From: Blastococcus sp. CCUG 61487
GTDB taxonomy: Bacteria; Actinomycetota; Actinomycetes; Mycobacteriales; Geodermatophilaceae
Reading direction: 5' to 3'
Length of the DNA: 48,388 nucleotides
Assembly (NCBI RefSeq): GCF_005222955.1
Contig: NZ_LWUA01000289.1
Span: 1 to 48,388 of the forward strand
Shown: positions 26,837 to 29,969 of the stretch, piece by piece
How positions within the stretch are numbered: position 1 is the first letter of the stretch
How the letters are laid out: every line of letters starts with the position of its first letter
Position numbers and translations under genes: made by a program
Notes under the pieces: generated by a model
The model's database searches: none
What the model saw: only the letters and a program-made list of their open reading frames with translations
Told to the model about the DNA's origin: nothing

Positions 26837-29056
26837 TCAGCTCCCCTGCCGGCGCGGCCGGGCCGGTCGTGCCGGTGCGGCCGGCCGGGTGGTGGTGGGC
26901 TGCCGGGAGGCGTCCCAGCGCTCGTAGGCGTCCACGATGTCGCCGACCAGTCGGTGCCGGACGACGTCGGAGCTGGTCAGGTTGGCGAAGTGCACGTCCT
27001 CCACGCCGTCGAGGATCTCGCGGACGATCTTCAACCCGCTCTGCGCCCCGCCGGGCAGGTCGACCTGCGTGACGTCGCCGGTGACCACGATCTTCGAGCC
27101 GAAGCCGAGCCGGGTGAGGAACATCTTCATCTGCTCGGCGGTGGTGTTCTGCGCCTCGTCGAGGATCACGAACGCATCGTTCAACGTGTTGTGCGTGACG
27201 ATGAAGTCATCGGTGACGTACAGGGAGTCCTGCGCGGCCACCTGGATGCACATCGTCTCCATGACGCCGACCGGTTCGATGCTGTCGATGAAGCGCATCG
27301 GCCGGCCGCCGCCCGCGGCCTCGTAGACGCGCCGCTTCCGCTCCAGACGGAAGGGCTGGACGTCGGCCGGCAGGCGGATCTCGAGGACGTGCGCCGCACG
27401 GCGGTCGTGGACAGGGCGTCCCTGCGCCATGCCCGGTGCTCGGCCGGCGGGGAGACGAGTGCGACGGGTGACGACGCCACCCAGCGAACGGACGAGGAAC
27501 ATGACGTCGTCCCGCAGGCGCTCGGACGTCGTCGTGTACCGGATGCGGCACGTCCGATCCTGCTGGGTCACCGGGCCGCCGTCCGAGTCGAGCAGCCCTT
27601 GGAGCAGCGCGATGCGCACGTCTGCCGAGTTGTGCGAGTAGACCCAAGGCACGAACTTCGTCGCCGACCGCGTGCCGGCGAGGTCGAGCTCCCGGATCGC
27701 CTCGGTCACCGGATTCGCGATGCGGAGCCCGCCACGGCCCCCGTGCACCTGCCGCAGGACGTGGTCCGGACCGGACTCGTGCACGAGTTCGATGCCCTCG
27801 AGTGCCGACTCCAGCGCTCCGACGAGTTCGGGGTCGCTCGTCGAGAAGGACGGCGTGGTCGACGTCGTCCGGCACCCGTCCCCGAGCAGGAGGCCCAGCG
27901 CGTACGGGTCGAGCGGCACTTCCTGCGGCTCGAACTCGACCGCGTCCACGAGCGGGAGCTCGTAGCGGTGTGCGCCCGCCCCCCAGCGCAGGTTGCCGAC
28001 CATCTCCTGCGTCTCGAGCGTGCGACTCGTCCCGCGACGGCGATCGTCCGGCGTCGTCACGGTCCACAGGTGCTCGCCGCACGCCAGGGTCGAGGCGCCG
28101 TCCTGGGTGGTGACCCGGTAGACGTCCTTCACGCCCTGCGGGTACACCCCGAGCACGGGCGTCGGCAGGCCGTTCGAGCCGACCACCAGATCGCCGACCT
28201 GGAGGGTGCCGATCGGCATGAAGCCGTTCGGGGTCAGCACCTTCGCGTCGTAGGGCTGCGCGCGGCCACGCATGTACGCCAGCGGCGCGACCTCGATCGT
28301 CCCGGCCGCCATGAGCCGCGGGATCGACTCCGGGTCGACCATGTCGTGCAGCGCGTCGTAGAGCGGGCGCAGGTAGGGGTCGATCTTCTCGCTGAGCGTG
28401 CCGGGCAGGTAGCCCAGGCGCTCGCCGGCCTCGACCGCCGGCCGGGTCAGGATGATCCGGTTGACGTTCTTGGTCTGCAGCGCCTGCACGGCCTTGGCCA
28501 TGGCCAGGTAGGTCTTGCCGGTACCGGCGGGCCCGATGCCGAAGACGATGGTGTGCGCGTCGATCGCGTCGACGTAGCGCTTCTGGTTCAGCGTCTTGGG
28601 CCGGATCGTGCGGCCGCGGCGGCTGATGATGTCGAGGCTGAGGACGTCGGCCGGCCGCTCCGCGCCGCCGGCCTTGAGCATCCCGATCACCCGGCGCACC
28701 GAATCCGGGCGCAGCTGCTGGCCGGTGCCGAGCAGCGCGATCAGCTCGTCGAAGACCCGGACGGCGAAGGCGTTGTCGGCCGGCTGCCCGGTCACCGAGA
28801 TCTCGTTGCCGCGCACGTGCACGTCGGCGTCGAGCTCGGCCTCGACCAGCCGGAGCAGCTCGTCGGCCGAGCCGAGCAGGCCCACCATCGAGATCGACTC
28901 GGGCACGGCGATCGTGGTGCGGACGGCGGCCGGCGGCGGTGCGGCCGTGCCGGCGGCGGCGTCCTCGGCGCTGTCGTCCAGGGCCGCAGCCTGGGCCGAC
29001 GCCTCACGGGACGTAGGGGCATCCTGGACGGGATCGTGCGGGGAGGTGTCGGGCAA
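26837..29056 (-). CDS. phoH: PhoH-family ATPase precursor containing an intein
   Basis: The 739-residue precursor comprises an N-extein (1 to 265), intein (266 to 623) and C-extein (624 to 739). The spliced product would be 381 residues, close to the usual PhoH length. The N-extein has a KH-like region ([14 protein letters not shown]), the [10 protein letters not shown] segment and Walker A GPAGTGKT (175 to 182). The C-extein begins [16 protein letters not shown] with Walker B and ends with [10 protein letters not shown] and VRHRLV. PhoH proteins are ATPases linked to RNA metabolism. The start is uncertain: TTG at 29056 gives LPDTSP, while a GTG 50 codons later is another choice. Confidence 0.9.
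27188..28261 (-). other. Class 3-like intein with LAGLIDADG endonuclease, inside phoH
   Basis: The 358-residue in-frame insert lies between LAYMRGR and [13 protein letters not shown], which are contiguous in intein-free PhoH. It begins with Ala ([13 protein letters not shown]) and ends VTHN. Block B has His64 and Trp66 (CGEHLWTV), block F has Cys338 (ETMCIQV) and block G has Thr356, His357 and Asn358. This is the Trp-Cys-Thr signature of class 3 inteins, which use the block F Cys in place of an N-terminal nucleophile. Two LAGLIDADG-type helices are present, LGLLLGDG (122 to 129) and [10 protein letters not shown] (219 to 228), with their acidic residues kept. The +1 extein residue is Thr. Confidence 0.93.
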
Positions 29057-29147
29057 GAACCCTCGACCCTGCCTTCCTGGCTGGGGGTGCGGACCGTGCG
29101 ACTCTACCCGTGCAGCGGCCCGTTCACCCCCGTCGCACCCAATGGGG

Positions 29148-29969
29148 TCAGCGCCCCGAGTAGGTCGCCTTGCCCGGCCCCTCGGCGAGGAAGGACCGCA
29201 CCGCACCGCGCAGGTCCTCGCTGCCGAACAGCGCCCCGGACACCTCGGGAACCAGCGCGTCGGCGGCGCGCGCCCCGTTGCGGGCGGCGGTGATGACCAG
29301 CTGCTTGGTGGCCGCGTGGGCCAGGGTCGGACCGGCGGCGACCTCCCGCGCGTAGGCGCGGGCGGCGTCGGCGAACCCCTCGTCGGGCAGCACCCGGTTG
29401 ACCACGTTCCACCGCGCCAGCACCGCGGCCGGGTAGCGCTCGCCGGTGAAGATCAGCTCCCGCGCCCGGGCCGGGCCGGCGCGCTCGGCCAGCCGCTGCG
29501 GTCCGCCCATCGACGGGGTGAGCCCCACGACGATCTCGACCAGGCCGAAGCTCGCCTTCTCGGCGGCCAGCAGGATGTCGCAGCACAGCGCCAGCTCGAA
29601 GGCGGCGGTGAGGGTGAGCCCGTGGGCGGCGAACACGGTGGGGACCGGCAGGTCCTCGATGGTCTGCGCGACCCGCAGCAGCCGGGTCCACAGGTCCGCC
29701 CCCTGGCGCACCGGCTCGGGGCCCTCGGCGATGTCGCGGAAGAAGCTGACGTCGACACCGCCGGAGACCACCTTCCCGCGCGCCTCGAACAGCACGGCCC
29801 GCGCCCGGCCGGGATCGGCCGGGTCGGTGAGGGCGACCAGCTCCGCGGCGACGTTCTCCAGCGCGTTGAAGACGGGCGGGTCGAACAGGTTCAGCGGCGG
29901 GTTGTCGAGGACGACGACGGCGACGTCGCCGTCCCGCTCGATCCGGAAGGGCTCGGCGCTGGCGGTCAT
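29148..29969 (-). CDS. Enoyl-CoA hydratase/isomerase family protein
   Basis: The 273-residue crotonase-fold protein has VAVVVLDNPPLNLFDPPVF at the N-terminus, an oxyanion-hole strand near GKVVSGGVDVSFF, and HGLTLTAAFELALCCDILLAAEKASFGLVEIVVGL. The position of the first catalytic Glu of enoyl-CoA hydratase is Ala/Phe-Glu in AAFELAL, and the second is near VGLTPSMGG, so activity may differ from classical hydration. The substrate is unknown. It lies between phoH and the HIT gene on the same strand. Confidence 0.88.
   Translation of the reverse strand: MTASAEPFRIERDGDVAVVVLDNPPLNLFDPPVFNALENVAAELVALTDPADPGRARAVLFEARGKVVSGGVDVSFFRDIAEGPEPVRQGADLWTRLLRVAQTIEDLPVPTVFAAHGLTLTAAFELALCCDILLAAEKASFGLVEIVVGLTPSMGGPQRLAERAGPARARELIFTGERYPAAVLARWNVVNRVLPDEGFADAARAYAREVAAGPTLAHAATKQLVITAARNGARAADALVPEVSGALFGSEDLRGAVRSFLAEGPGKATYSGR

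Follow-up and report, generated by a model that had tools for sequence, protein, structure and literature searches.

The phoH gene in the window (the whole stretch of 48,388 nucleotides that was analysed) is interrupted by an insert that, on its sequence, is a class 3 intein with a LAGLIDADG endonuclease, and in three clades rich in this element synonymous change is concentrated in the codons at its target site. This hotspot and the scattered presence of the intein on gene trees are new here. The phoH intein itself adds one more host to a known and widespread family, and we regard the hotspot as the part worth following.

The insert (27188-28261, minus strand) encodes 358 stop-free residues ending in DDFIVTHN and lies wholly within a single open phoH frame (26837-29206, minus strand). 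The two stretches of the PhoH Pfam match (E 1.9e-89), the better of which covers residues 201-316, flank the intein; the precursor also matches Pfam LAGLIDADG_3 (E 1.6e-11), and the phoH product matches PDB 3b85 (E 1.1e-100). The insertion point, written here as a slash, falls between the Arg and the Thr of MRGR/TLNDAF, just ahead of the Walker B motif of PhoH, and the joined flanks are unbroken in 18 intein-free genomes out of the 23 genus genomes searched. The translation, the open frame and these intein-free flanks bear out an earlier sequence-only reading, which had described a 358-residue insert in phoH starting with Ala. Its recurrence at this position in 25 of 394 class genomes shows that it is no chance feature. 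GC content is 0.709 in the intein and 0.718 in the phoH flanks. The features are as follows.

26837..29206, minus strand: phoH precursor open reading frame, 789 amino acids including the intein, stop codon counted, putative start codon
28262..29206, minus strand: coding part of the N-extein, terminating in Met-Arg-Gly-Arg
28262..28285, minus strand: left half of the homing site, the final 8 codons of the N-extein, within the synonymous hotspot of the intein-rich clades
27188..28261, minus strand: intein, Ala1 to Asn358, 358 residues (translation and flank comparison)
28259..28261, minus strand: Ala1, no N-terminal nucleophile (translation)
28079..28081, minus strand: Cys61 of CxxH, at the position of the class 1 TxxH Thr and the MsmDnaBi1 DxxH Asp (alignment)
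28070..28072, minus strand: His64, block B
28064..28066, minus strand: Trp66, W of the WCT triplet (aligned to solved class 3 inteins)
27875..27904, minus strand: LAGLIDADG motif 1, with Asp128 (motif)
27578..27604, minus strand: LAGLIDADG motif 2, LQGLLDSDG, with Asp227 (motif; Pfam LAGLIDADG_3)
27248..27250, minus strand: Cys338, block F nucleophile, C of the WCT triplet (alignment)
27194..27196, minus strand: Thr356, T of the WCT triplet (alignment)
27188..27193, minus strand: His357 (penultimate) and Asn358 (terminal) (translation)
27185..27187, minus strand: Thr+1 of the C-extein, second nucleophile (translation)
27167..27187, minus strand: right half of the homing site, the initial 7 codons of the C-extein
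26837..27187, minus strand: coding part of the C-extein, with the Walker B region, stop codon counted

Trp66, His64, Cys338, Thr356, His357, Asn358 and the +1 Thr all stand where the sequence-only reading had placed them. The alignment that it had proposed as a check on its class 3 assignment likewise came out in favor of that assignment, with W, C and T occupying class 3 positions: Trp66, Cys338 and Thr356 match the WCT residues of MchDnaB1, MsmDnaBi1 and gp41-1_WCT. In the native class 3 references (6rix and 6bs8), the WCT residues and the closing THN pair with Trp66, Cys338 and Thr356-His-Asn; in 6riz (gp41-1_WCT, the gp41-1 mutant C1A, F65W, D107C), the partners are the engineered F65W and D107C plus Thr123. 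The WCT positions of the references are those indicated in PMC7664689 and PMC6195587. On its own the alignment of the block F/G segment to native class 3 inteins is worth only about 1 bit, yet it is consistent, so it is conservation across relatives that carries the class 3 point.

A scan of contigs gave 490 relatives, and the 80 that are listed by name all sit at the same phoH site; because the scan used the endonuclease motifs as patterns, these 80 are biased toward full-length inteins. The Trp, the Cys, the Thr, both His, the Asn and the +1 Thr are present in 80 of 80, as is Arg at -1. The intein opens with Ala in 77, with Ser in three and with Cys in none; residue 61 is Cys in 74 and Ser in six, Asp128 is kept in 78 and Asp227 in all. 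None of the 47 loci collected at genus, family and class level departs from the W, C, T, two His or Asn either; this set partly shares genomes with the 80, includes some inteins of other genes and excludes L068 and the window copy, and the +1 residue of these loci is Thr in 42, Ser in four and Cys in one. Class 3 inteins are described as having Ser or Thr, rarely Cys, at +1 (PMC5222942), and the window intein follows this rule with Thr+1. Two LAGLIDADG motifs were found, in line with the intact homing-endonuclease motifs of the sequence-only reading, and both acidic residues of the homing endonuclease (Asp128 and Asp227) are kept in the window copy. A separate observation concerns Cys61, which sits in CxxH rather than TxxH or DxxH; it might be a redox partner of Cys338, comparable to Cys48 for Cys118 in MsmDnaBi1, where the two are reported as a redox pair (PMC6195587).

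An AlphaFold2 model of the intein, built from a 26-row alignment, had a pLDDT of 91.2 and a pTM of 0.90. The best Foldseek match in the PDB was PI-SceI (E 1.8e-17), and the class 3 inteins 6riy, 6rix and 6bs8 were among the best structures consisting of Hint only.

A working model that we hold with high confidence is that the insert splices in cis as a class 3 intein, has a LAGLIDADG homing endonuclease nested within it and resides in actinobacterial phoH. After translation of the precursor, Cys338 would attack the Arg/Ala1 peptide bond directly, assisted by His64 and Thr356, and a thioester branch would form on Cys338. The N-extein would then pass to Thr+1 to give a second branch, and cyclization of Asn358 would release ligated PhoH. 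The endonuclease, for its part, would cut intein-free phoH alleles at the joined Arg-Thr, and repair off the occupied allele would copy the intein in, allowing it to spread across species. In this model the chemistry of splicing, the cutting of DNA and homing are extrapolated from published work on other inteins.

Class 3 inteins in PhoH have been seen before. An alignment from 2018 includes those of M. fortuitum and M. xenopi (PMC6195587, Fig. 6a), an intein is reported in M. smegmatis PhoH (PMC7360933), and LAGLIDADG motifs are given for 82.5% of 1701 class 3 inteins (PMC7891396). The mycobacterial PhoH inteins have both the host gene and the class 3 signature in common with the window intein. 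Five Mycobacterium/Mycolicibacterium loci from our own searches (L155, L161, L168, L171 and L172) share its exact site, Ala1, WCT and +1 Thr at 62-64% identity. The sequence-only reading had held that such an intein, full-length and in a bacterial chromosomal gene, deserves a second look; given the published mycobacterial cases, the high share of LAGLIDADG motifs among class 3 inteins and how widespread the element is in the class, that appraisal is not supported. The window intein is of an already described type that is common in actinobacteria, and its rarity is not supported.

Relative to the DnaB mini-inteins MsmDnaBi1 and MchDnaB1 (6bs8, 6rix, 6riy), the window intein is alike in the absence of a nucleophile at position 1, in WCT, and in the His and Asn; it differs in carrying an endonuclease, in having Thr+1 rather than Ser+1 and in residing in PhoH. 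MsmDnaBi1 is moreover described at a P-loop site and with DxxH in block B, whereas the window intein has a pre-Walker B site and CxxH (Cys61). PI-SceI, the VMA1 intein, shares the Hint plus LAGLIDADG architecture and is the best fold match, but it has 454 residues and is only 18% identical in the structural alignment; it is a class 1 intein with Cys1. Class 3 inteins of phage helicases and terminases are full-length and contain LAGLIDADG motifs like the window intein, often with the A-Q-P start in common, and in the rows listed (the best 40 of 751 phage records and the best 80 of 435 IMG/VR loci) they are 33-44% identical to it, L179 (55%) excepted. W, C and THN are invariant in the best 80 of the 435 IMG/VR loci, where the W is not independent evidence as the search pattern held the Trp. 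Lys stands at -1 in 41 of these 80 viral loci and, by motif, is mostly the Lys of a P-loop.

Several related elements were encountered along the way. The exception just mentioned, L179:2063-3781, is an IMG/VR viral contig with a phage-type phoH whose intein lies at the identical MRGR/T and has both endonuclease motifs. Such a virus is a possible vehicle between hosts. We did not accept it as proof of phage descent, since it is a single viral contig that does not give the direction of transfer, and a blastn comparison of the L179 intein DNA with phage records gave no match. Six viral loci that are phoH-like by their P-loop context (L202, L204, L236, L249, L250 and L251) have a class 3 intein, recognized by motif only, at the P-loop and not at MRGR/T. 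Further related class 3 inteins, 338-358 aa long with W, C and THN and mostly an A-Q-P start, follow what is by motif a P-loop-like Lys in actinobacterial helicases or ATPases (L094, L096 and L097, RecG-like with LLQGEVGSGK/T, and L093, L067 and L069).

The distribution of the phoH intein is patchy. Of the 23 genus genomes searched, 5 carry an intein at this phoH position, and a looser cut-off gave some match in 10. Carriers number 18 among 112 family genomes, where 20 matched (G048 and G060 in other genes), and 25 among 394 class genomes, where 30 matched. Carriers among the 80 listed relatives include Blastococcus, Geodermatophilus, Micromonospora, Lentzea, Streptomyces and Mycobacterium, as well as one that is non-actinobacterial, Calidithermus chliarophilus. 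On a tree of the phoH flanks the genus required 5 presence changes for 5 occupied genomes, and on gene trees without the site there were 18 changes for 18 occupied genomes in the family of the window host (f1), 17 for 26 in clade g15 and 10 for 14 in clade g53, counts that are rough as each tree is of one short gene with support values mostly absent. From its 68-70% matches to Micromonospora, we infer that g15 is a Micromonospora-like clade. The scatter of presence over the gene trees may be taken as an indirect sign of mobility and homing. A plasmid origin was rejected, as the best match in a plasmid collection (59.5%) was NZ_LT559118, which at 11.85 Mb is chromosome-sized.

Endonuclease decay is a stage of the homing cycle. 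The inteins of L548 (g15, 328 aa) and L095 (g53, 331 aa) have lost both LAGLIDADG acidic residues and kept W, C and THN; they appear to represent this stage, with decay of the endonuclease under way. Intact-looking, decaying and empty phoH alleles coexist within the same genera. A search of the class sample for a mini phoH intein, i.e. one devoid of the endonuclease, found no clean loss of the domain: all 20 genomes with a two-piece phoH match also had an intein match, as did five with a half-length single phoH match (G171, G182, G230, G334 and G394), and the check covered genomes other than three with weak single phoH matches (G158, G185 and G261). Shortened phoH inteins of about 331 aa were present in G145 and G182.

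Two other explanations of the element have to be weighed against our working model. The insert could be a class 2-like intein, or one derived from class 1 that lost Cys1, that does not splice, leaving phoH inactivated or only cleaved. A decayed class 1 intein would likewise show Ala1; the class 3 residues are all invariant across the 80 named relatives, however, Ser1 is limited to three and Cys1 is absent, and the intein is stop-free in all 80 as well as in the family and class matches listed. Furthermore, phoH of the window type is single-copy in the 23 genus genomes, where it is accompanied by one more distant PhoH-like paralogue. We therefore consider a non-splicing insert very improbable. 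Less easily set aside, but still unlikely, is that the intein splices with a dead endonuclease and owes its distribution to vertical inheritance with losses. Endonuclease decay does occur, Asp128 being gone in two of the 80 named relatives in addition to the decayed L548 and L095. Against this idea are (i) the retention of both endonuclease aspartates in the window copy; (ii) the interleaving of occupied and empty alleles on the gene trees and (iii) intein-adjacent codons that differ from their surroundings as would a short conversion tract, both in the family alleles L062, L059 and L065 and in L008 versus L027, although five other close pairs lack a clear peak at the site. The model of a splicing, homing class 3 intein thus remains the one that we favor; the anatomy, residue positions, predicted fold, patchy distribution and one fixed insertion site on which it builds are all results of this analysis.

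The synonymous hotspot was recognized in empty alleles. The Arg codon just before the insertion point is AGA or AGG (AGR) in 9 of 18 empty genus alleles; in the family AGR stands there in 19 of the 87 empty alleles that were parsed and in none of the 18 occupied ones, compared with 12 of 1465 for other Arg codons. Addition of one partial locus brought the count for empty family alleles to 20/88 (112 genomes, of which 18 are occupied, 3 gave no match and 3 are fragments missing part of the gene). When the arginines at -3 and -1 of empty alleles were taken together, AGR was found in 22/176 versus 9/1275 at other arginines in f1, the discovery family. Four clades outside the data from which the idea was formed gave 19/140 versus 2/936 (g15, 70 of 75 empty alleles), 17/48 versus 23/313 (g53, 24 empty alleles; its 40 genomes comprise 24 empty, 15 occupied and one unassigned), 6/28 versus 4/174 (f2, 14 alleles) and 2/38 versus 13/273 (f21, 19 alleles), the last showing no excess even though 5 of 39 f21 genomes contain the intein. 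The corresponding values in controls were 0/68 versus 7/503 (f20, 34 alleles, all 35 genomes intein-free), 0/34 versus 25/237 (other genera of f19, 17 alleles; one genome beyond the control sample, G488, is occupied) and 0/24 versus 2/162 (f29, 12 parsed of 14 alleles).

Changes mapped on gene trees of empty alleles agree with these frequencies. Switches between AGR and CGN at the two site arginines numbered 15 in f1, 16 in g15, 12 in g53, 5 in f2 and 2 in f21, and neither of two control sets had any; the remaining 11 to 14 arginines gave 5, 0, 8, 3 and 8, and 5 and 8 in the controls. With f1 left out, the ratio of site to other switches was 35:19 versus 0:13 in the controls (p 1.4e-5, on the assumption that the changes are independent). 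In f1, g15 and g53, third-base S/W changes were 3.6 to 3.9 times as common in the core (codons -6 to +3) as over the remaining codons, and no 9-codon window elsewhere reached the core ratio (0/143, 0/143 and 0/144, respectively). The core excess was 2.3-fold in f2, 2.1-fold in f21 and 1.9-fold in both controls, where 2/143 and 9/143 windows exceeded the core; since the controls show it too, part of the third-base excess is general. Some family alleles have a patch of codons ending in A or T that extends from about codon -21 to +17; as many as 11 of 18 codons close to the site are of this kind, versus 2-6% elsewhere in the gene. As a side observation, a site patch of approximately 115 bp is silently recoded with A/T-ending codons in eight empty family phoH alleles (L322, L309, L038, L313, L026, L311, L323 and L025) from several genera, for example GGA ACA ATT GAA ... 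CCA TTA, and the codon choices are common across genera despite a difference at residue -16 (Gln or Ala).

The hotspot may record invasions by the intein, and two rival causes of this kind fit it, namely silent mutations that confer resistance, and traces left by recurrent rounds of break repair and conversion. In the former scenario, empty phoH alleles under pressure from the homing endonuclease would escape by acquiring silent AGA/AGG and A/T-ending codons at the cut site: in GC-rich hosts an enzyme tuned to C/G wobble bases would leave A/T wobbles as an escape route. We regard this scenario as conceivable but doubtful. AGR at -1 was more frequent in empty than in occupied alleles of f1 (20/88 versus 0/18, p 0.021), and the values were 10/70 versus 3/26 in g15 (p 1) and 11/24 versus 3/14 in g53 (p 0.18). 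At -3 they were 2/88 versus 0/18 in f1 and 6/24 versus 0/14 in g53 (p 0.067), with the direction reversed in g15 (9/70 empty versus 10/26 occupied, p 0.009). The pooled contrast between empty and occupied alleles was modest at -1 (41 observed versus 34.9 expected, CMH chi2 4.66) and absent at -3 (chi2 0.72). The notion that AGR at -1 marks resistance was dropped, as these counts do not show a simple two-codon resistance. A further candidate, the absence of rare +1 Leu codons from occupied Micromonospora alleles (0/20 named), fell in the larger set (3/26). At most positions rare codons are about as frequent in occupied as in empty alleles, and in g15 they are more frequent in occupied alleles at -6, -5, -3 and +7; their presence in occupied alleles argues against simple resistance.

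Conversion has some support of its own. Three occupied family alleles (L062, L059 and L065) have A/T-rich codons farther out and GC-rich ones adjoining the intein, and between L008 and L027, 11 of 60 bases differ in the site region versus 0-2 of 30 in other blocks (5 of 30 in one block). Both the codon pattern and this peak of differences favor conversion; in five other close pairs the site block was not clearly higher than the rest. There is precedent in yeast, as described in PMC7282813, both for resistance at the level of the allele and for conversion around a homing site. In the haloarchaeal system of PMC10643990, resistance is attributed to an amino-acid change at +1, and the endonuclease is described as still cutting a target with mostly synonymous differences, which together argue against easy silent escape. 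Among the papers listed by our literature searches on the hotspot idea, we noticed none on synonymous recoding of an intein target.

It is also possible that the hotspot has nothing to do with the intein and reflects a codon or RNA constraint of phoH. In line with this, the intein-free controls have a third-base core excess of their own, with a few windows that are higher still, f21 bears the intein yet lacks the AGR excess, and the A/T-rich family patch is wider than the HO and VDE sites, which are given as roughly 24 bp (PMC7282813). Speaking against it, the core ratio in f1, g15 and g53 is unmatched by any 9-codon window elsewhere, and the many AGR/CGN changes at the site arginines of these clades contrast with none in the controls. 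We rate such a constraint as improbable, slightly more so than silent escape.

What the finding offers is a setting in which silent host resistance can now be asked about: 182 empty and 58 occupied alleles from three clades were parsed (the occupied set leaving out one locus, L559) around one fixed homing site, with controls. If silent escape were true, it would amount to a natural, protein-neutral arms race against a selfish gene, legible from genome sequence alone, with a parallel in engineered gene drives.
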